Source: Allonocardiopsis opalescens (GTDB lineage: Bacteria > Actinomycetota > Actinomycetes > Streptosporangiales > Streptosporangiaceae). Taken from it: 64,000 nt of DNA. Each line of letters starts with the position of its first letter. The stretch's first letter is position 1. Both the position numbers and the translations under genes were made by a program. Shown here piece after piece: positions 31,082 through 41,314 of the stretch. Under the pieces are notes generated by a model. The model made no database searches, was not told the DNA's origin, and saw nothing but the letters and a program-made list of their open reading frames with translations. Location of the stretch: NCBI RefSeq assembly GCF_003002095.1, contig NZ_PVZC01000008.1, positions 1-64,000 of the forward strand, read 5' to 3'.

Positions 31082-33766
31082 TCACGCGCCGGCCGCCACC
31101 CGGTCGGCGACGGTGCGGCGCACCGCGTCGAGCGCGGTGCCGATGGCGCCGGGGTCGGTGCCGCCGCCCTGCGCGACGTCGGGCTTGCCGCCGCCTCCGC
31201 CGCCCAGCGCGCGGGCGGCCACGCCGACCAGCTCGCCGGCCTTCAGCTCGCGGCGGCGGCCCGCCTCGTTGACGGCCACCACCACGACGGGCCGGTCCTT
31301 GGGCACGCCGGTGATGACGACGGCGGCGGGGCGGTCGGCCGGGATCCTGCCGCGCACGTCGAGTGCGAGCCTGCGGAGGTCGTCGGGGCCGGTGCCGTCG
31401 GGCGCGCGGTGCGCGACGAAGGCGGCGCCGCCGATGTCGGCGGCCTCCTCGGCCAGCCGGCCCGCCGCCTGGAGCACCTGCGCCGAGCGCAGCTTCTCCA
31501 GTTCGCGCTCTGCGGCGCGCAGCCGGGTGACGATGCCGTCGATGCGCTCGGGCAGTTCCTCGCGGCGCACTTTGAGCTGGTCGGAGAGCTGGCTGACCAG
31601 CACGCTCTCGCGGGAGAGGTAGCGGAAGGCGTCCAGGCCGACCAGCGCCTCGACCCGGCGCACGCCCGCGCCGATGGAGGACTCGCCCAGGATCTTGATC
31701 AGGCCCAGCTCGCCGGAGTTGTGGACGTGGGTGCCGCCGCACAGCTCGCGGGAGTACTCGCCGATCTCGACCACCCGCACCTCGTCGCCGTACTTCTCGT
31801 TAAACATGGCGACGGCGCCCATGGCGCGCGCCTGGTCGATCGAGGTGTGGAAGGCGTTGACCGCGAGGTTCTCCTCCAGGACGGCGTTCACCTCGTCCTC
31901 GACGTCGCGCAGTACCGAGACGGGGACCGCGCCCGGCGAGGTGAAGTCGAAGCGGAAGCGGCCCGGGGAGTTCTCCGAGCCGGCCTGCGCGGCCGACTCG
32001 CCCAGGGCGCGGCGGACCCCGGCGTGCACCAGGTGGGTGGCGGAGTGCGCGCGGGAGATGGCCTGGCGGCGCTGGAGGTCGATCTCGCTGTAGGCGGTGT
32101 CGCCGACGACGGCCTCGCCGCTGACGACCTTGCCCCGGTGCGCGATCAGGCCGGGCACCACCTGCTGGACGTCGTGGACGTCGATCTCGGCGCCGCCGCC
32201 GAGCCGGATGGAGCCCTGGTCGGCCAGCTGGCCGCCGCCCTCGGCGTAGAAGGGGGTGCGGTCCAGCATCAGCTCGACCGTGCTGCCGGCTCCGGCCGCG
32301 GCGGCCGGGACGCCGTCGACCACCAGGCCGACCACGGTGGCCTCGGCGACGGTGGCGTCGTAGCCGATGAAGGAGCTGGCGCCGGCCGATTCCAGCAGGT
32401 CCGTGTAGGCGGAGATGTCGGCGTTGCCGGTCTTCTTGGCGGCGGCGTCGGCCTTGGCGCGCTCGCGCTGCTCAGCCATCAGCCGCCGGAAGCCCTCTTC
32501 GTCGACGCTCAGCCCGGCCTCGGCGGCCATCTCCAGGGTGAGGTCGATGGGGAAGCCGTAGGTGTCGTGCAGAGTGAAGGCCTGGGCGCCGGCCAGCTGG
32601 GTGCCGCCGGAGCGGCGGGTCTGCTCGACGGCGGTGTCGAACAGGGAGGTGCCGGTGCGCAGGGTGGCCGCGAAGGACGCCTCCTCGGCGTCGATGACGG
32701 TGTGGATGCGGCCGGCCTCGGCGATCAGCTCGGGGTACTGCTCGCCCATCACCTCGATGGCGGTGGCGGTGAGCTCGTGCAGGTAGCGCTGGTCGCCGGA
32801 GCCGAGCAGCCGCAGGTTGCGCACGGCGCGGCGCAGGATGCGCCGCAGCACGTAGCCGCGGCCCTCGTTGCCGGGCATGACGCCGTCGGCGACCAGCATG
32901 GTGCCGCCGCGCAGGTGGTCGGCGACGACGCGCAGCGCGACGTCGGAGCGGTCGTCGCGGCCGTAGGCGACTCCGGTGAGGCGGGCGGCGTGGTCGAGGA
33001 TGCGGCGGGTGGTGTCGACCTCGTAGATGTTGTCGACGCCCTGCAGGATCGCGGCGATGCGCTCCAGGCCCATGCCGGTGTCGATGTTCTTGGCCGGGAG
33101 GTCGCCGACGATCGGGTAGTCCTTCTTGGCGCCGCCCTCGCCCCGGATGTTCTGCATGAACACGAGGTTCCACAGTTCGAGGTAGCGCTCGTCATTGGCC
33201 TCGGGGCCGCCCTCGCGGCCGTAGGCGGGGCCGCGGTCGTAGCAGATCTCGGAGGCGGGTCCGCACGGGCCGGGCACGCCCATGGACCAGAAGTTCTCCT
33301 CCATGCCCAGGCGCTGGATGCGGTCGGCCGGGACCCCGACCTCGCGGCGCCAGATGTCGGCCGCCTCGTCGTCGTCGAGGTAGACGGTGACCCACAGCTT
33401 GGACTCGGGCAGGCCGAAGCCGCCGTCGGCGACGGGGGCGGTGAGCAGCTCCCAGGCGAGCGGGATGGCCCGCTCCTTGAAGTAGTCGCCGAAGGAGAAG
33501 TTGCCGAGCATCTGGAAGAAGGTGGCGTGCCTGGTGGTCTTGCCGACCTCGTCGATGTCGGGGGTGCGGATGCACTTCTGGGCGCTGGCGGCGCGCGGGT
33601 ACTCGGGCCTGCGCTGGCCCAGGAAGTACGGCTTGAACGGGGCCATGCCCGCGTTGATCAGCAGCAGGGTGGGGTCCTCGGCGATGAGGCTGGCCGAGGG
33701 GACAACGGTGTGCCCGTTGCGCTCGAAGAAGGTGAGGAAGCGGCGAGCGATTTCTGCCGACTTCAT
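31082..33766 (-). CDS. alaS: alanyl-tRNA synthetase
   Basis: The 894-residue class II synthetase charges tRNA-Ala and edits Ser/Gly mischarging. The N-terminal catalytic core begins [20 protein letters not shown] and has [20 protein letters not shown] (motif 2 region). The editing domain carries the zinc-type motifs [13 protein letters not shown] and [13 protein letters not shown]. The C-terminal DHHA1-like domain ends in [18 protein letters not shown] 33766 shares a base with the stop of the upstream small gene. Length and domain order are normal. Confidence 0.98.
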
Positions 33767-34080
33767 CAGCGGCCGTCCTTGTTGTCGTGGCGGTTGGTCG
33801 GATTGGTGCCCTGGTCGGTGGAGGCCCTGACGGGCCCGGTAGCTCGGCGCGGCCGCGCGGCGGCCGCCATGGCCGCCCGCAGTTCGGCCTCGCGGCCCCG
33901 GCTGGCGTCGCGGACCTCGGCCGCGAACGCGCGGGCGCCGGCTTCGAGCTCGCTCACGCGGCCCTCGACGCGCTCCGCGATCCCCTCGGGGGTGAACGCG
34001 TGGGACGCTCTGCTCAGCTTACGCAGCGCGAACAGGGTGAGGGCCGAGCCGACCAGCATCCAGAACAAGCGCCTGATCAT
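33766..34080 (-). CDS. small membrane-anchored protein upstream of alaS
   Basis: The 104-residue protein has an N-terminal hydrophobic segment ([18 protein letters not shown], about residues 5-22), a charged helical part ([20 protein letters not shown]) and a polar tail. Small proteins of this layout lie between the DUF948 gene and alaS in Streptomyces, so it is a conserved neighbour of unknown role. Its ATG (34080) overlaps the DUF948 stop, and its stop overlaps the alaS start (TGATG). Confidence 0.8.
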
Positions 34081-34505
34081 CGGGTCCGCCCCGGGAGCCG
34101 GCGCTGCGCGCGCCCGGGCAGGGCGCGGCGGGCCGCCCGGCGGCCGGCGCGCTGCTCGCGGCGGGCGGCGATCGCGGCGCGCACGCCGTGGCCGAGGGCG
34201 GCGACCTTGATGAGCGGGTTGGCGATGACCGTGCGGGCGACCCCGGACAGCTGGGAGACGTCCGCCGAGGTGGATTCGAGGTTGGTGGTGATCACGTCGG
34301 TCCGGTCGAGCTGGCTGTTCACCCGCGAGAGCGCCGTCTCGGCGTCGTCGAGGAGCGCGGGGGCGCGTTCGGCGAACTCGGCCACGACCTTGGTGGTCTC
34401 GTTCACCAGCCGGGTGAGCCGGATCAGCGCGTAGGCGAGGAAGCAGACCAGGATCGCCCAGAACACAGCGACGATCAGGGCCGCTACTTGGCCTCCTGTC
34501 AGCAT
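34077..34505 (-). CDS. DUF948-family membrane protein
   Basis: The 142-residue protein starts with a membrane segment (VAALIVAVFWAILVCFLAYA, about residues 6-26). A DUF948-type amphipathic helix follows (LIRLTRLVNETTKVVAEFAE, then LSRVNSQLDRTDVITTN), and the C-terminus is strongly basic (ARREQRAGRRAARRALPG). Its role is unknown. The pairing with the next small gene and alaS is a conserved actinobacterial arrangement. ATG 34505 begins MLTGGQVAALI. Confidence 0.85.
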   Translation of the reverse strand: MLTGGQVAALIVAVFWAILVCFLAYALIRLTRLVNETTKVVAEFAERAPALLDDAETALSRVNSQLDRTDVITTNLESTSADVSQLSGVARTVIANPLIKVAALGHGVRAAIAARREQRAGRRAARRALPGRAQRRLPGRTR

Positions 34506-34615: not shown

Positions 34616-35920
34616 TCAGCGCGCGCCGGCGCCCGGGCGCCCCGGGGGCGGCGCGGCCGGGCGCAGGGTGCGGGGGCCGGCGCCGAAGGCGTCCGCGCAC
34701 AGCTGGACGAAGCGGCCGGCGCCGGGCAGCGCCAGCGCCCAGCCGAGCAGCGCCCAGCCCAGGTGCAGGTGCTCCAGGGCGCGGGCGAGGGCGGCGGTGC
34801 CGGTGCGGGTCTCGGGGCCGCAGGTGTAGGTCATCCGGTCGGGGGCGCCGTGCTCCTCGGCGGGCAGCAGCTCCAGCGCGACCGGGCCGCGCACGGCCAG
34901 CCAGCGCCCGAGGCCGCGGCACATGGAGCAGGTGCCGGCCAGGTAGAGCCGGGCGGCGGGCCGCCCGGGCCAGGGGCGCCAGGAGGGCAGCCAGGGGCGG
35001 ACCGCGCGCCGGTAGCGGCGCCAGCCGGGGCCGAAGGCGCGGTCCAGCCGGCCGTTCTCGTGCCAGGCGGCGAGGCCGCCGCAGGCCAGTGCGGCGGCGG
35101 TGCCGGCCAGCAGCCGGGGCTCGGCGGCGGCCAGGGCGCACAGCGGGTAGGCCAGGGCCATCGCGAGCTGCATCGGGTTGCGCACGTAGGCGTAGGGGCC
35201 GCTGGTGACCAGCCGCACCGGCGGGTCGTAGGGCAGCGGGGTGCCGCCGCCGGTGCGGGCGAACTCGGCGGCGGCCGCCAGGCCGGGCAGCAGCACCAGT
35301 GCCAGCAGCTGGACGAGGACGCCGGTGGCAGGGGCGGGCCAGGCGGGTTCGGCTCCCAGCAGGTGCAGGGGCAGGGCCAGCATCAGCGCCCCGGCCAGCA
35401 GCGCCTGCGCCGCCGCCCGTGCGCGCGGGCGGCGGCGCTCGGCGGTCCAGCGGGCCAGCAGCACGGCGGGCAGCAGGCAGCCCGCCACCGCCACGGCCTC
35501 GCCGGCGAGCCAGTTCGGGCCGAGCACCACCACGGGTTCGGCCAGCGGCATCAGGGCGAGGTCGAGCCAGGCCGCGGCCGCGGCGGTGAGCGCCAGCGGC
35601 AGGCCGCGGGCGGCGAGGGCGGGCAGGGCGCCCCACAGCACCGCCCAGCCGATCCACAGGTCGACGGGCAGGCCGCGGGCGAGGGCGCCGTCGGCGGCGA
35701 AGTGCCACCAGCCGGCGGCGGGCGCGAGCTGGTTGAGCGCGTAGAGGGAGGCGGCGGTCCACGCGGTGGCGACCACGGCGGCGCCCGTTTCGGCGCCGGG
35801 CTCGCTCGCGCGGCCCGATCGGCGGCCCGATCGACGGCGGAGCGCGACCGCGGCGGCCAGGGCGAGCAGCGGGCCGAACAGGGCGAGCCCGCGGATCAGC
35901 GCGGGGTCGGCCGGGCTCAC
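34616..35920 (-). CDS. polytopic membrane protein: methyltransferase-like (ICMT/PEMT) domain fused to a DCC (DUF393-like) thiol domain
   Basis: The 434-residue protein has about eight hydrophobic segments over residues 1-300. Near residues 234-250, RLVTSGPYAYVRNPMQLA is the RxPxY/RNPxY-like signature of isoprenylcysteine carboxyl methyltransferase and phospholipid methyltransferase relatives. From about 325 the protein becomes a DCC-type domain: RLYLAGTCSMCRGLGRWLAV with a CxxC pair, TYTCGPETRTGTAALARALE, then two hydrophobic helices (LGWALLGWALALPGAGRFVQ). This fusion is one I do not recall. The GTG start at 35920 overlaps the stop of the upstream gene (GTGA). A methylation plus thiol-redox role at the membrane is speculation. 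Confidence 0.7.
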   Translation of the reverse strand: MSPADPALIRGLALFGPLLALAAAVALRRRSGRRSGRASEPGAETGAAVVATAWTAASLYALNQLAPAAGWWHFAADGALARGLPVDLWIGWAVLWGALPALAARGLPLALTAAAAAWLDLALMPLAEPVVVLGPNWLAGEAVAVAGCLLPAVLLARWTAERRRPRARAAAQALLAGALMLALPLHLLGAEPAWPAPATGVLVQLLALVLLPGLAAAAEFARTGGGTPLPYDPPVRLVTSGPYAYVRNPMQLAMALAYPLCALAAAEPRLLAGTAAALACGGLAAWHENGRLDRAFGPGWRRYRRAVRPWLPSWRPWPGRPAARLYLAGTCSMCRGLGRWLAVRGPVALELLPAEEHGAPDRMTYTCGPETRTGTAALARALEHLHLGWALLGWALALPGAGRFVQLCADAFGAGPRTLRPAAPPPGRPGAGAR

Positions 35921-36894
35921 CGCCGCACCGGGTGCGCCGGGCCGGCCGCCAGGGCGGCGAACTCCGCGGCCAGGTAGCCGGCGGCCTCCCCGGCGGCGTA
36001 CCGCTGGATCGGCCCGAAGTACCAGCCGGGGTCGTAGGTGCGCCGGTAGTGCAGGGTCCAGGCCAGTTCGGTGCCGCCGCCCGGGCGGGCGCGCCAGCGG
36101 ACCTCGGCCCGCTCCAGGTCCAGCCAGCGGGCCAGGGTGGTGTCGGCGGTCACCGTGAACACGGCCCGGCCGCCGTCGGGCCGCGACTCGCTCTCGGTGA
36201 CGCGCAGCGCCATCGAGCGCGGCTCGGGCTCGGCGCCCGGACCGAGCGAGCGGCGGGGCGTGAAGCGGACCAGCCGCTCGTCGCCGAGGTCCAGGCCGGT
36301 CCCCGCGGCGGACAAGGGGCGGGGGAAGCCGAGGGCGAGCAGGCCGCCGGGCGGCTGTTCGTAGGCCGGCTCGGCGGCCAGGGCGGCCGCGACGCGGCCG
36401 GGCTCGGCGGCCACCGTGCGGACGGCCGTCGCGGCGTCGTGCTCGGGCCAGGAGGCGAGGGCGCCGCCGCTCGCGGCGCCGTCCAGGCAGGCAAGCGCGA
36501 GCACCGGCGCGAGCGCGAGGGTGCTCGGCCCGCCGCGGGCGCGGTCGGCCAGCCAGCCGACCAGCGCGGCGACCCCGAGGAAGAGCGGTGCGGCCACGAC
36601 CAGGCAGACGACGCCCTCGTCCAGCAGCGGTCCGGCCAGGGCGAGCCCGACCGCGGTGGTGGCGGTCGCGACGCCGGCCGCGCTGCGCGGCCGGGCGGCG
36701 AAGACCACCGTGAGCGCGATGGCGGCGGGCAGGCCGACGTAGAAGAGCGCGGTCTCCTCCAGCCGGCCGGCGTGCAGTACGCGGTAGCCGAGCATGGCGG
36801 CGAAGAGCGCCGCCAGCACCCCGGCCAGCAGCAGCCGGGACCGCCCGCCGCCCCGCGGCTCCGGTTCGCCCCTGAAGTCGTCCTCGCCCGCCAT
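35917..36894 (-). CDS. membrane protein with C-terminal SRPBCC-like domain
   Basis: The 325-residue protein has five or so membrane segments in residues 20-150, for example LLLAGVLAALFAAMLGYRVL and TALFYVGLPAAIALTVVFAA. A soluble C-terminal half follows. It reads like a polyketide-cyclase/START-type fold (RSMALRVTESESRPDG, EVRWRARPGGGTELAWTLHY, DPGWYFGPIQRYAAGEAAGY). Such folds bind hydrophobic ligands. The gene is coupled to the DCC-fusion gene and divergent from a tetR gene, so a shared lipid-related function under TetR control is plausible. The fold assignment is tentative. Confidence 0.65.
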   Translation of the reverse strand: MAGEDDFRGEPEPRGGGRSRLLLAGVLAALFAAMLGYRVLHAGRLEETALFYVGLPAAIALTVVFAARPRSAAGVATATTAVGLALAGPLLDEGVVCLVVAAPLFLGVAALVGWLADRARGGPSTLALAPVLALACLDGAASGGALASWPEHDAATAVRTVAAEPGRVAAALAAEPAYEQPPGGLLALGFPRPLSAAGTGLDLGDERLVRFTPRRSLGPGAEPEPRSMALRVTESESRPDGGRAVFTVTADTTLARWLDLERAEVRWRARPGGGTELAWTLHYRRTYDPGWYFGPIQRYAAGEAAGYLAAEFAALAAGPAHPVRR

Positions 36895-36943: not shown

Positions 36944-36961
36944 TTTAATCACTTGGTTAAA
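36944..36961. promoter_or_regulatory. imperfect palindrome between tetR and the membrane-protein operon (TetR operator candidate)
   Basis: TTTAATCAC/TTGGTTAAA: 7 of 9 base pairs are symmetric, in an AT-rich patch within very GC-rich surroundings. TATGAT (36965-36970) beside it may be the tetR -10. Such sites are usual for TetR autoregulation and control of a divergent operon. Confidence 0.55.
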
Positions 36962-37023
36962 CCGTATGATGAACCGGCAGCGGCCGTCCGCGCAAGGGCG
37001 GGCTGGCACGGAGGGAGGCGGCG

Positions 37024-37704
37024 GTGAAGGCCGGCACGGGCGGGCGCGGCGGGCGGAGCGCCCCCGGCGCGGAGCAGACCAGGGACAGGCTGGTGGAGGC
37101 GGCGGGGCTGGTGCTGCGGACCGAGGGCTACACCGGCGCCTCGGCGCGCACGATCGCGCGGGAGGCCGGGGTCAACTCGGCGCTCGTCTTCTACCACTTC
37201 GGCGGGGTGGACGCGCTGCTGCTCGCGGCGCTGGACCGCTCCTCGGCGCAGCGGATGGAGCTGCACGAGGCGACGGCCGCGCGGGCGCGCACCCTGGAGG
37301 AACTGGTCGAGGCGGCCACCGAGATCTACCGGGCCGACGTCGAGGGCGGCCACATCACCCTGTTCAGCGAGCTGGTCGCCGCGGCCGTGACCCGGCCGGA
37401 GCTGCGCGCGGAGATCGCCCGGCGCTCCGAGCCGTGGATCGCCTTCCTGGAGCGGCACCTGGACCGCGTCATCGGCGGCTCGCCGCTGGCGCGGCTGCTG
37501 CCGCCGCGCGAGCTGGCCTCGGCCGCGATCACCTTCTACCTGGGCGCGAACCTGTTCACCGTCATCGACGACGACGGGCGGCGCACCGAGGAGCTGCTCG
37601 GCCTGGCCGGGCGGCTGGCGCCGCGCGCCCGGCTGCTCACCCTCCGGCTGCCCGGCCGCAACCGGCGCGGCGCCCCGGCGCCGGACGGGGAGGGGGCGCC
37701 CTAG
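37024..37704 (+). CDS. TetR/AcrR-family transcriptional regulator
   Basis: The 226-residue repressor-type protein has an N-terminal helix-turn-helix (TRDRLVEAAGLVLRTEGYTG, then SARTIAREAGVNSALVFYHF, about residues 19-65). The C-terminal part forms the ligand/dimer domain and ends with a Pro/Gly-rich tail. The GTG start at 37024 has GGAGGGAGG upstream. It is divergent from the SRPBCC/DCC membrane operon and probably represses it through the palindrome in between. The ligand is unknown. Confidence 0.9.
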   Translation: MKAGTGGRGGRSAPGAEQTRDRLVEAAGLVLRTEGYTGASARTIAREAGVNSALVFYHFGGVDALLLAALDRSSAQRMELHEATAARARTLEELVEAATEIYRADVEGGHITLFSELVAAAVTRPELRAEIARRSEPWIAFLERHLDRVIGGSPLARLLPPRELASAAITFYLGANLFTVIDDDGRRTEELLGLAGRLAPRARLLTLRLPGRNRRGAPAPDGEGAP

Positions 37705-37770: not shown

Positions 37771-38346
37771 ATGGCGACCGGCCACGCGTACCGCGCCCAG
37801 GACGGCGCCGCGCCGCGCGGGCGGCGCACCCCGATCCGGGCGGCCGGGCCGCTCGCGGCGCTCGCGCTGGCGGCCGCCGGCTGCGGCGGCGCGGGGCCGG
37901 CCGAGCCGTCGGCGCCGCCGCCGGAGTCCGCGCGGCCCGCCCCGACCGCCACCGCGGAGGCGGTCGCCTTCGTCGGCCTGGCCGACTACCCGCCCGAGGG
38001 GCCGCGGCCGCAGGCCGGCCGCGCCTTCCCCTTCGTCGAGGCGCGCCCCGCCGACGAGGTCCAGCCCGACAACCCCGGACTCGGCGAGGGCTTCTACTCC
38101 CCCGGCGAGGACGCCGAGCCGCGCTGGGCGGTGTTCGCGCCCGGCGCCGAGGTGCTGTGCGCCTCCTTCTGCGACCCCGACGAACTCACCATGGACGGCG
38201 AAGGGCGGGGCACCGCCCCGGTGCCGGTCGCCGACGCCGAGCGCCACCTCGCCGACGGCGGCGAACTGCTGCTCGACCTCTCCTACGCCGAGGCGGCCGA
38301 CGGCAGCGTCGTGATCACCCGCGCCGCCGAGGTCTTCCAGCCCTGA
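37771..38346 (+). CDS. secreted lipoprotein, unknown function
   Basis: The 191-residue protein has a basic N-terminus, signal peptide AAGPLAALALAAAGC with lipobox AAAGC (Cys near 35), a Pro/Ala/Ser linker and a mature domain. Two close cysteines (LCASFCDPDEL) could form a disulfide. ATG 37771 follows GGGAGG. No family was recognised. It lies between tetR and a convergent lipoprotein gene whose stop is 5 bp away. Confidence 0.75.
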   Translation: MATGHAYRAQDGAAPRGRRTPIRAAGPLAALALAAAGCGGAGPAEPSAPPPESARPAPTATAEAVAFVGLADYPPEGPRPQAGRAFPFVEARPADEVQPDNPGLGEGFYSPGEDAEPRWAVFAPGAEVLCASFCDPDELTMDGEGRGTAPVPVADAERHLADGGELLLDLSYAEAADGSVVITRAAEVFQP

Positions 38347-38350
38347 GCGC

Positions 38351-39421
38351 TCAGCGCACCTCGATGTCCCACTCCGTGGTGGGCGGCTCGTCCACCCAGC
38401 TCAGCGGCTCGCTGTCGCCGCCGCCCGCCGCCCGGGCGAGTTCGCCGCGCGGGCTGAAGACCAGGGTGCCGCTGCGGAAGTCCTGGGGCACCTCGAAGAC
38501 CACGCTCTGCCCGGACACCCCCGCCTCGGCGCCGGCCCGCGCGCCGTCGGGCAGCGGGCGCCGGGTGCCGCCGGCCGGCAGCCTCAGGCTGAAGCTGTCG
38601 GTGAGGTCGAGGTCGAGGGTCACCGGCTGGCCCCGGTCCAGGTCCAGGCCGTCGTCGGCGAAGCTGAAGGACGACACCACCAGCCAGGCCCGGCCGGACT
38701 CCGCCCAGCCGATCCCGGGCAGGTAGCTGTCGAGTTCGGCGCCCGCGTCGACGGTGCCGGGCCGCACCACCACCGTGAACGGCCGCCGGGTCCCGCCGCC
38801 CTCCACCCGTCCGCGCAGCTCGGCGGTGAGGTCCAGGCGCTGGGTCCGGCGCACCCGCTCCGAGTGGGTCTCCTCCCGCTCGGTGATCTGGCCGGTGCGC
38901 ACGTCGATGGCCTGGGTCTGGCCGTCCTCGGTGACCCGCAGCGAGGTGGGGGCGCCCTCGGGCACGCTCACCATCAGCGAGGCGGGCACCACGCCGTCGA
39001 TGCCGGACAGGTCCAGCGGGCGGGGCCGCCCGTCCACCGCGATCTCGGCGGTCACCCCCTGCCAGGGGTCGGGGCGCGAGGCCGCGAGCGCGGGGTCGTA
39101 GCGGATCGTGACGACCAGCAGCTCGTGGCCCTCGGCGGTGCGCACGGGGCCGTCCAGCCCGTTGAGCCGGGCGCCCTCGGCGTCAACGCGGCTGGCCACG
39201 GTGAGGTCGCCCAGGGTGAAGGCGTAGCCGGGGCCGGCCAGCCCGGCGTCGTCGGGCAGCTCGACCAGCTGGGTGTTCTCGGCGTCGTAGCCGAAGACCA
39301 GCTCGCGGTTGACGACCTGGACGAAGTCCGCGGGCAGCTCCTCTCCCGCCGGCACGGCGCAGCCCGCAGCCACGGCGGCCGCGGCGAGCAGCGCGGCGGC
39401 GCCTGGGCGCGCGACACCCAC
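38351..39421 (-). CDS. lipoprotein, unknown function
   Basis: The 356-residue exported protein has the signal peptide GAAALLAAAAVAAGC (Cys near 21). The mature part is rich in beta-strand-like alternation (FTVVVRPGTVDAGAELDSYL, then ESGRAWLVVSSFSFADD), reminiscent of several immunoglobulin-like modules. It has a hinge with RTGQITEREETHSERVRRTQ and no catalytic motif. The GTG start at 39421 has AGGAGG upstream. Function is unknown; a cell-envelope role is inferred only from export. Confidence 0.75.
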   Translation of the reverse strand: MGVARPGAAALLAAAAVAAGCAVPAGEELPADFVQVVNRELVFGYDAENTQLVELPDDAGLAGPGYAFTLGDLTVASRVDAEGARLNGLDGPVRTAEGHELLVVTIRYDPALAASRPDPWQGVTAEIAVDGRPRPLDLSGIDGVVPASLMVSVPEGAPTSLRVTEDGQTQAIDVRTGQITEREETHSERVRRTQRLDLTAELRGRVEGGGTRRPFTVVVRPGTVDAGAELDSYLPGIGWAESGRAWLVVSSFSFADDGLDLDRGQPVTLDLDLTDSFSLRLPAGGTRRPLPDGARAGAEAGVSGQSVVFEVPQDFRSGTLVFSPRGELARAAGGGDSEPLSWVDEPPTTEWDIEVR

Positions 39422-39985: not shown

Positions 39986-41314
39986 TCAGCCGCCGCCCTC
40001 GGGGCGCAGCACGGCGCGCAGCCGCTCCAGCACCTCGCCGTAGCGGCGCTCGGCGCCGTGGGAGCTGGGGCGGTAGTACTCCCGGTCGGCCACGGTGTCG
40101 GGGGCGTAGCGCTGCCCGACCACCCCGCCGGGGAAGTCGTGCGGGTACCGGTAGCCCTCGCCGTGGCCGAGCGCCGCCGCGCCCTTGTAGTGGGCGTCGC
40201 GCAGGTGCGGGGGCACGCCGCCGGCCCGGCCGGCGCGGACGTCGGCCAGCGCGGCGTCGATGGCGGTGACCACGCTGTTGGACTTGGGCGCCAGGCAGAG
40301 GTGGATGACGGCCTGGGCCAGGTTGATGCGCGCCTCGGGCAGCCCGATGAGCTGGACGGCCTCGGCGGCGGCCACCGCGACCTGGAGCGCGGTGGGGTCG
40401 GCCATCCCGACGTCCTCGCTGGCGTGCACCACCACCCGGCGGGCGATGAAGCGGGGGTCCTCGCCCGCCTCGATCATCCGGGCCAGGTAGTGCAGGGCGG
40501 CGTCGACGTCGCTGCCGCGGATGCTCTTGATGAAGGCGCTGATCACGTCGTAGTGCTGGTCGCCGGAGCGGTCGTAGCGCACCGCGGCGCGGTCCACCGC
40601 GCGCTCCAGCGCGGGCACGTCGATGAGGCCGTCGTCGCCGGCGGTCAGGGCGGCCGCCTCCAGGTAGGTCAGCGAGCGGCGGGCGTCGCCCCCGGCCAGC
40701 AGCACCAGCTGGTCGGCGGCCTCGGGGGCGAGGGTGCAGCGCCCGGCCAGGCCGCGCTCGTCGGTGAGGGCGCGCTCGACCACCGCGCGGACGTCGTCGT
40801 CGCCGAGCGGTTCGAGGGTGAGCAGCAGCGAGCGCGACAGCAGCGGGCTGATCACCGAGAAGAAGGGGTTCTCGGTGGTGGCGCCGATGAAGGTGACCCA
40901 GCGGTTCTCCACCGCGGGCAGCAGCGCGTCCTGCTGCGCCTTGTTGAAGCGGTGGACCTCGTCGACGAAGAGCACGGTCTGGGTGCCGGACATGCCCAGC
41001 CGCCGCCGCGCGCCCTCGATCACCTGCCGCACGTCCTTGACGCCGGCGGTGACCGCCGACAGCTCCACGAAGCTGCGCCGGGTGGCGCGGCTGACCACGT
41101 AGGCGAGGGTGGTCTTGCCGGTGCCGGGCGGCCCCCACAGGAACAGCGACATGGGGACGTCGTCCTCGACCAGCCGCCGCAGCGGGGTGCCGGGCCCGAG
41201 CAGGTGCCGCTGGCCGAGCACCTCGTCCAGGCCGCTGGGCCGCATGCGCACCGCCAGCGGCGCGTTGGCGCGCTGCGCGGACTCCTCGGCGTCGTCGAAC
41301 AGTGTTTCGGACAC
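39986..41314 (-). CDS. rarA: replication-associated recombination protein A (AAA+ ATPase)
   Basis: The 442-residue RarA/MgsA-type ATPase acts at stalled replication forks and is related to clamp loaders. Seen: [20 protein letters not shown], Walker [15 protein letters not shown] (about residues 60-73), Walker [21 protein letters not shown], sensor [12 protein letters not shown] and the C-terminal MgsA domain ([48 protein letters not shown]). The GTG start at 41314 begins (M)[10 protein letters not shown]. In Streptomyces rpsD lies nearby; here it does not. Confidence 0.96.

Follow-up and report, generated by a model that had tools for sequence, protein, structure and literature searches.

The window, 64,000 nucleotides (nt) from the start of contig NZ_PVZC01000008.1 of the actinomycete Allonocardiopsis opalescens, carries a three-gene locus that is the subject of this analysis. 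Two genes on the reverse strand, for which we use the working labels PAR (the partner gene) and FUS (the methyltransferase/DCC fusion gene), are coupled through a 4-nt overlap between the PAR end and the FUS start. A tetR gene diverges from them across a 129-nt intergene containing the palindrome TTTAATCACTTGGTTAAA, which is TTTAATCA-CT-TGGTTAAA when written by half-sites. The initial annotation had described a PAR-FUS pair under a divergent TetR with a palindrome, and both open reading frames, the regulator, and the palindrome are found in that arrangement (Table 1). The motifs GPYAYVRNPMQ and GTCSMCRGL are both present in the FUS translation.

Table 1. Features of the PAR-FUS-tetR locus (positions within the window)
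Feature	Position	Strand	Description
FUS gene	34616..35920	-	434 aa, GTG start at 35920; polytopic N-domain, PEMT/ICMT-like methyltransferase domain, and DCC1-like domain
PAR gene	35917..36894	-	325 aa; membrane-anchored START/SRPBCC protein
tetR	37024..37704	+	TetR-family regulator, divergent from PAR-FUS; TetR_N above cut-off
Predicted TetR operator	36944..36961	.	TTTAATCACTTGGTTAAA; palindromic, conserved across loci
-10-like box for tetR	36965..36970	+	TATGAT, next to operator; putative, by reading of sequence
FUS residues 1-190	35351..35920	-	conserved polytopic N-domain: GWWxF, PVDLWxGWAxLWG, W-x-D-x3-MP, W-x2-GE
FUS residues 224-312	34985..35251	-	putative S-adenosylmethionine (SAM)-methyltransferase core: GxGTPxPxDPPxRLVxxGPYxYxRNPMQ ... 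HE ... YRxxVRxWxP
FUS residues 320-413	34682..34963	-	predicted DCC1-like thioredoxin-fold domain; hhalign 96.6 and fold model
CxxC (CSMC), FUS residues 331-334	34919..34930	-	within DCC1-like domain
PAR helices 1-5, residues 17-139	36478..36846	-	predicted transmembrane, N-in by charge bias; model confidence low (about 50-69)
PAR residues 148-322	35929..36453	-	START/SRPBCC (helix-grip) domain, predicted extracytoplasmic

PAR and FUS are conserved as a pair. In a set of 297 genomes from the order, 73 carry whole or fragmentary FUS (matches below about E 1e-25) and 69 carry whole or fragmentary PAR; both genes occur in 67, some of which hold partial copies, FUS or its pieces alone in 6, and PAR pieces alone in 2. 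Near full-length FUS is found in 29 of 150 Micromonosporaceae genomes (one in two pieces), in 4 of the 16 genomes covered from a family in another class, which has one partial copy besides, and in 6 of 396 genomes of a phylum sample. A class sample gives a FUS match at E 1e-30 in 22 of 394 genomes. For comparison we picked 61 distinct FUS loci for diversity among the matches and read them by tblastn and hidden Markov models, counting once two loci (L034, from Hamadaea, and L186) that are identical letter for letter over the tested stretches and by which the family of L186 is recognized as Micromonosporaceae. PAR lies in the same stretch at 60 of these 61 loci and is adjacent to FUS at 59; the non-adjacent cases are L063, a contig end whose counterpart in the same genome is L064, and L053, where the genes are interrupted. 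A tetR gene adjoins the pair at 49 of the 59 adjacent loci, divergently at 31 and downstream on the same strand at 18. Conservation of the gene set across loci rules out chance neighbors.

The three proteins also diverge together, their pairwise distances correlating with r 0.90–0.94 over 29 loci and 0.79–0.85 over 25 own-family loci. In the closest own-family pairs (six for each gene), the ratio of nonsynonymous to synonymous substitution rates (dN/dS) is 0.26–0.42 for FUS, 0.25–0.49 for PAR, and 0.12–0.19 for tetR, which is thus under the strongest constraint of the three. Excluded from the 61 are ten decayed or partial loci (L080–L089): L087 has FUS in two frames and no PAR in the stretch fetched, and L080–L086, L088, and L089 are decayed or partial copies. 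Such decayed copies, some of which keep tetR and its predicted operator, suggest that the module is conditionally useful. In one genome (G702), PAR and a two-piece FUS lie on one contig and a FUS C-terminal piece lies beside tetR on another (L199 and L200).

Within the window's own family of genomes, TetR is the most conserved of the three genes, with 61%–73% identity in loci L050–L079 where it is found, and the window protein has a TetR_N helix-turn-helix at 33.7 bits (Pfam cut-off 24). In 508,067 bases of own-family loci, window included, the palindrome TTTAATCANNTGATTAAA, with half-sites TTTAATCA-NN-TGATTAAA, occurs 29 times at up to 2 mismatches, and all 29 copies lie between the tetR and PAR matches. 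It is present in 28 of the 31 stretches, the remaining three being two contig ends and one truncated locus. The family of the other class has the palindrome within 2 mismatches in all four loci, and in Micromonosporaceae a related palindrome, TTTGAGCANNTGCTCAAA (a consensus from the same loci), precedes PAR at 21 of 22 loci when up to 3 mismatches are allowed. We take the palindrome as the predicted TetR operator. Because it is found only between tetR and PAR, in another class too, it indicates a dedicated regulator. A regulon extending beyond the module was considered and set aside, as the 6.97-Mb genome of A. opalescens holds no second copy of the palindrome at up to 2 mismatches. The -10-like TATGAT box next to the operator is seen again in many intergenes of the compared loci. 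At L084, L085, L088, and L089, tetR and the operator persist where PAR and/or FUS has decayed or been lost.

Because the window proteins alone give scant Pfam matches, the domain assignments draw on orthologs, profiles, and predicted folds. For the FUS core, the window protein has a sub-cut-off PEMT match (21.2 of 25 bits), and PEMT is above cut-off in 7 of 10 FUS orthologs, in agreement with the methyltransferase-like domain proposed initially; the ICMT score stays below cut-off in every FUS scanned. Residue conservation was counted from hmmalign columns over the 61 FUS sequences: P249, M250, Q251, and E288 are invariant, and N248 and H287 are kept in 59. Set against the RHPxY/EE motif of 4a2n and 8xku, the Pro, Met, and second Glu are kept in all 61 proteins and the His and Tyr are replaced. 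FUS shares with PEMT/ICMT proteins (PF04191, PF04140; 4a2n) the order of core motifs, the predicted membrane topology, and the conserved Glu, but has NPMQ for RHPxY, HE for EE, and extra domains. The PEMT matches of the orthologs and the order of the core motifs support a PEMT/ICMT-type SAM-methyltransferase domain as the core of FUS, which would carry out methyl transfer.

The CxxC cysteines of the FUS tail, C331 and C334, are kept in all 61 proteins. A profile of the FUS C terminus aligns with eight DCC1-like proteins of relatives at an hhalign probability of 96.6, versus 0.1 and 0.0 for the methyltransferase and N-terminal segments used as controls. The alignment covers 87 columns at 21% identity and places CxxC after the first strand, as in DCC1-like oxidoreductases (PF04134, DUF393 in older annotation). 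Eight of 10 orthologs list the DCC1-like family under its Pfam cut-off, at best with 25.9 of 27.8 bits, and in a separate Pfam scan it is listed in 6 of 8 FUS proteins at E up to 1. The predicted C-domain is thioredoxin-like, with Z up to 3.9 against thioredoxin- and glutaredoxin-like proteins, a level that is weak by the tool's own note. Profile and model support the DCC-like CxxC domain of the initial annotation as a probable DCC1-like (thioredoxin-fold) domain. It is unlike typical family members in being a fusion tail, and the Asp found before CxxC in the DCC proteins of relatives is missing from the window FUS. A separate DCC1-like gene lies in the same genome about 13.5 kb past the window end (G000:C8:77555-77881).

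Our analysis adds a third conserved domain to the initial description, the FUS N-domain, in which D120, M124, W137, and G140 are kept in 60 of 61 proteins, with one gap. No Pfam family was above cut-off in five members scanned. Its GxW...G-x-P...GW motif weakly resembles CruF carotenoid enzymes. Descent from a carotenoid enzyme was set aside as weak: CruF/Caroten_synth (PF04240) gave an hhalign probability of 13–32 and no Pfam match. DUF6989 was likewise dropped: it appears at E 7e-4 in one of the five N-domains, 0 of 149 genomes had a match above cut-off, and no paper on it was found in the open-access literature searched.

The window PAR protein has no reliable Pfam match, and Polyketide_cyc2 is listed under cut-off in 5 of 10 orthologs and is absent from the lists of the other 5; in L172, scanned separately, it reaches 24.3 of 27.4 bits. 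AlphaFold2 predictions of PAR and FUS were made from eight sequences each. That of the PAR C-domain is good, the membrane part being modeled at low confidence, and residues 148–322 match START/SRPBCC structures (VIA Z 14.4, rmsd 3.2 over 148 residues; Foldseek probability 1.00). By its model, then, the PAR C-domain is a START/SRPBCC helix-grip fold. It shares this fold, at Z 13–14, with Polyketide_cyc2 and START-SRPBCC proteins (PF10604; PYL2, TTHA0849), from which PAR differs in being carried on five predicted helices, predicted extracytoplasmic, and under the Pfam cut-off. This agrees with the initial description of a partner joining membrane helices to a hydrophobic-ligand fold. With methyltransferase and DCC similarity both detected and the pair conserved, none of the results named there as speaking against that reading was obtained, and it is supported at the level of domains and operon.

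Mean K+R per loop, which is not length-normalized, is higher in predicted inside than outside loops of both proteins; for PAR it is 1.78 and 2.95 inside and 0.46 and 0.03 outside. The charge bias puts the PAR N terminus inside and an odd number of helices precedes the C-domain, so the predicted location of the START domain is extracytoplasmic, a point that goes beyond the initial description. In FUS, the GWWxF/PVDLW and MP...GE loops are predicted to face outward, with the methyltransferase motifs and DCC tail on the inner side.

In the window, the module is situated between DUF948-alaS-ruvX and rarA (34077-34505, 31082-33766, and 39986-41314). L070 has the module at the same DUF948-alaS/rarA position, and L082 has a remnant of it there; in the remaining stretches compared, these neighbors were not seen. 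Two open reading frames next to the module (37771-38346 and 38351-39421) have lipoprotein-like starts by reading and no Pfam family, and tblastn at 1e-4 did not find them at any other locus of the module that was searched. When neighbors were clustered in 54 stretches, FUS (42), PAR (32), and TetR (31) led, and no other gene family recurs across lineages. The next family, a gene of about 730 codons (L051 4883-7066, L076 3875-6073), occurs in 14 of the 54 stretches, all from the window's own family. Thirteen of these stretches also hold FUS, and in 12 of them the gene lies downstream on the FUS strand. Since it is also found beside decayed copies, does not occur next to the window module, and in two members scanned matches no Pfam family, we take it as local gene order, and membership of a larger biosynthetic cluster was set aside.

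The pair in a Tsukamurella record (L172, 708-9113) ends an Hsp70-hypothetical-MFS-M48 peptidase-PAR-FUS run, of which genome G1087 (L183) has the hypothetical-MFS-M48-PAR-FUS part; in neither does a tetR adjoin the pair, which comes after the MFS and M48 genes in both. The Tsukamurella genes are annotated simply as "methyltransferase" and "hypothetical protein." Anti-phage defense was rejected (no PADLOC match at E up to 0.1), as was phage cargo (no FUS match among phage records). Plasmid cargo was also rejected: plasmid records gave one FUS match and none for PAR, the latter being no proof of absence, as tblastn with the window PAR missed a homolog in the Tsukamurella record that a profile found. 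That record, although plasmid-titled, carries zwf and a methionine transporter and may be chromosomal.

The module appears to be a variant built from known families (PEMT/ICMT, DCC1-like, START/SRPBCC, and TetR), and no description of it was found in the open-access literature searched, including PMC8612252 and PMC1282579. The closest parallel is RhlM of Paraburkholderia, a rhamnolipid methyltransferase, which sets a precedent in that a bacterial enzyme of the ICMT family methylates a lipid, the products being rhamnolipid methyl esters (PMC11069360). According to that paper, only archetypal ICMTs previously had an identified methyl acceptor in this membrane enzyme family, and H122 and E162 of RhlM contact SAM (PMC11069360). 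Like RhlM, which acts on an amphiphilic lipid, FUS would be an integral membrane enzyme of the ICMT family with a lipophilic molecule as its proposed substrate. By way of a non-significant alignment with ICMT 4a2n (E 0.13), FUS E288 probably corresponds to the SAM-contacting Glu of RhlM, and N248 would occupy the place of the His. FUS thus differs from RhlM in carrying Asn at the position expected for the SAM-contacting His, and in its extra N- and DCC domains. The settings also differ: RhlM belongs to a rhamnolipid cluster with a known product, whereas FUS has a START-protein gene and tetR as its partners.

The gene set, palindrome, PAR/FUS overlap, and domain identities are established at the level of sequence. 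We tentatively favor a model in which the three genes form a dedicated, ligand-induced membrane module that would methylate a lipophilic molecule. TetR, while bound to the palindrome, would repress all three genes; binding of a hydrophobic inducer to TetR would lift the repression. PAR, anchored by its five helices, would expose the START ligand domain at the outer side of the membrane and hand the lipophilic molecule to FUS. Still within the membrane, FUS would methylate this molecule on a carboxylate, hydroxyl, or thiol group, with SAM from the cytosol as the methyl donor. The CxxC domain, on the cytosolic side, may keep FUS itself, or a thiol or disulfide of the substrate, in the redox state needed. 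The likeliest purpose would be neutralizing or adapting to an amphiphilic compound, foreign or self-made; the patchy distribution, varied gene neighborhoods, occasional decay, and private regulator make a fixed housekeeping role less likely.

Several observations weigh against this model. The SAM-site motif is altered relative to ICMT 4a2n, with RHPxY mostly replaced by (R/A)NPMQ and EE by HE, so that methyltransferase activity is not certain. By sequence, FUS finds no significant chain in the PDB (AtTam46, E 0.011, is best, with ICMT 4a2n at E 0.13), and its AlphaFold2 model is poor overall, with a mean predicted local distance difference test (pLDDT) score of 59.7. No FUS scanned reaches the DCC1-like Pfam cut-off, and the Tsukamurella FUS (L172) has PEMT under cut-off, at 22.4 bits, and no DCC1-like listing. 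No tetR adjoins the pair at 10 of the 59 adjacent loci, including one at a contig end. A START domain outside and a SAM site inside would require the molecule to cross the membrane.

The superfamily of the methyltransferase core also holds sterol reductases and NnrU/Z-ISO-like proteins, and FUS might accordingly use this scaffold for redox catalysis or for binding and not be a methyltransferase. Besides the altered SAM motif, the best structural match of the core would fit such a role: FUS residues 99–309 align with delta14-sterol reductase 4quv (VIA Z 7.6, rmsd 2.5 over 111 residues), and the invariant CxxC of a DCC redox domain would suit a reductase. That match is weak, however, its Z lying below the tool's own safe level for helical proteins; later VIA matches are weak too, and Foldseek returned nothing significant for the FUS model. 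With PEMT above cut-off in most orthologs and a GPY..(R)NP(M) ... E order that follows ICMT, we consider a non-methyltransferase role distinctly unlikely.

Tailoring of an endogenous lipid or isoprenoid is the better alternative, though still rather unlikely. Here a native membrane lipid, quinone, or carotenoid-like molecule would be methylated as an optional envelope change, with TetR sensing a lipid precursor. The START partner and the weak CruF-like motif of the N-domain are consistent with this, as is the placement of the Tsukamurella and G1087 pairs after MFS and M48 metallopeptidase genes, as in an envelope operon; the low CruF probability, the lack of a lipid or carotenoid biosynthesis gene among the shared neighbors of the 54 stretches, and the patchy presence (67 of 297) argue against it. 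The gene runs in L172 and L183 might instead point to a general envelope-stress set, in which DCC would perform disulfide exchange and the methyltransferase core would be a membrane scaffold. Those are two related loci, however; the other loci compared showed no MFS or M48 gene next to the pair, and the CxxC is predicted cytosolic, making such a set very improbable.

Returning to the favored model of a ligand-induced methylating module, its most specific form would be a membrane enzyme complex not described before, in which a lipophilic thiol, disulfide, or acid is taken up by the extracytoplasmic START domain and loaded into the three-part enzyme, there to be reduced by the cytosolic CxxC domain and methylated by the intramembrane core. 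We advance this version speculatively and consider it unlikely as it stands. The module is compact and widespread among actinobacteria. If this most specific version is correct, it would represent a redox-coupled, inducible lipid methylation system with its own operator, common to at least two actinobacterial classes. An outward START domain nearly always paired with an intramembrane methyltransferase would be an unusual route for feeding lipid to an enzyme. The predicted operator makes the inducer amenable to screening and the candidate catalytic residues E288, C331, and C334 are invariant, so that discovery of the substrate should be practical.

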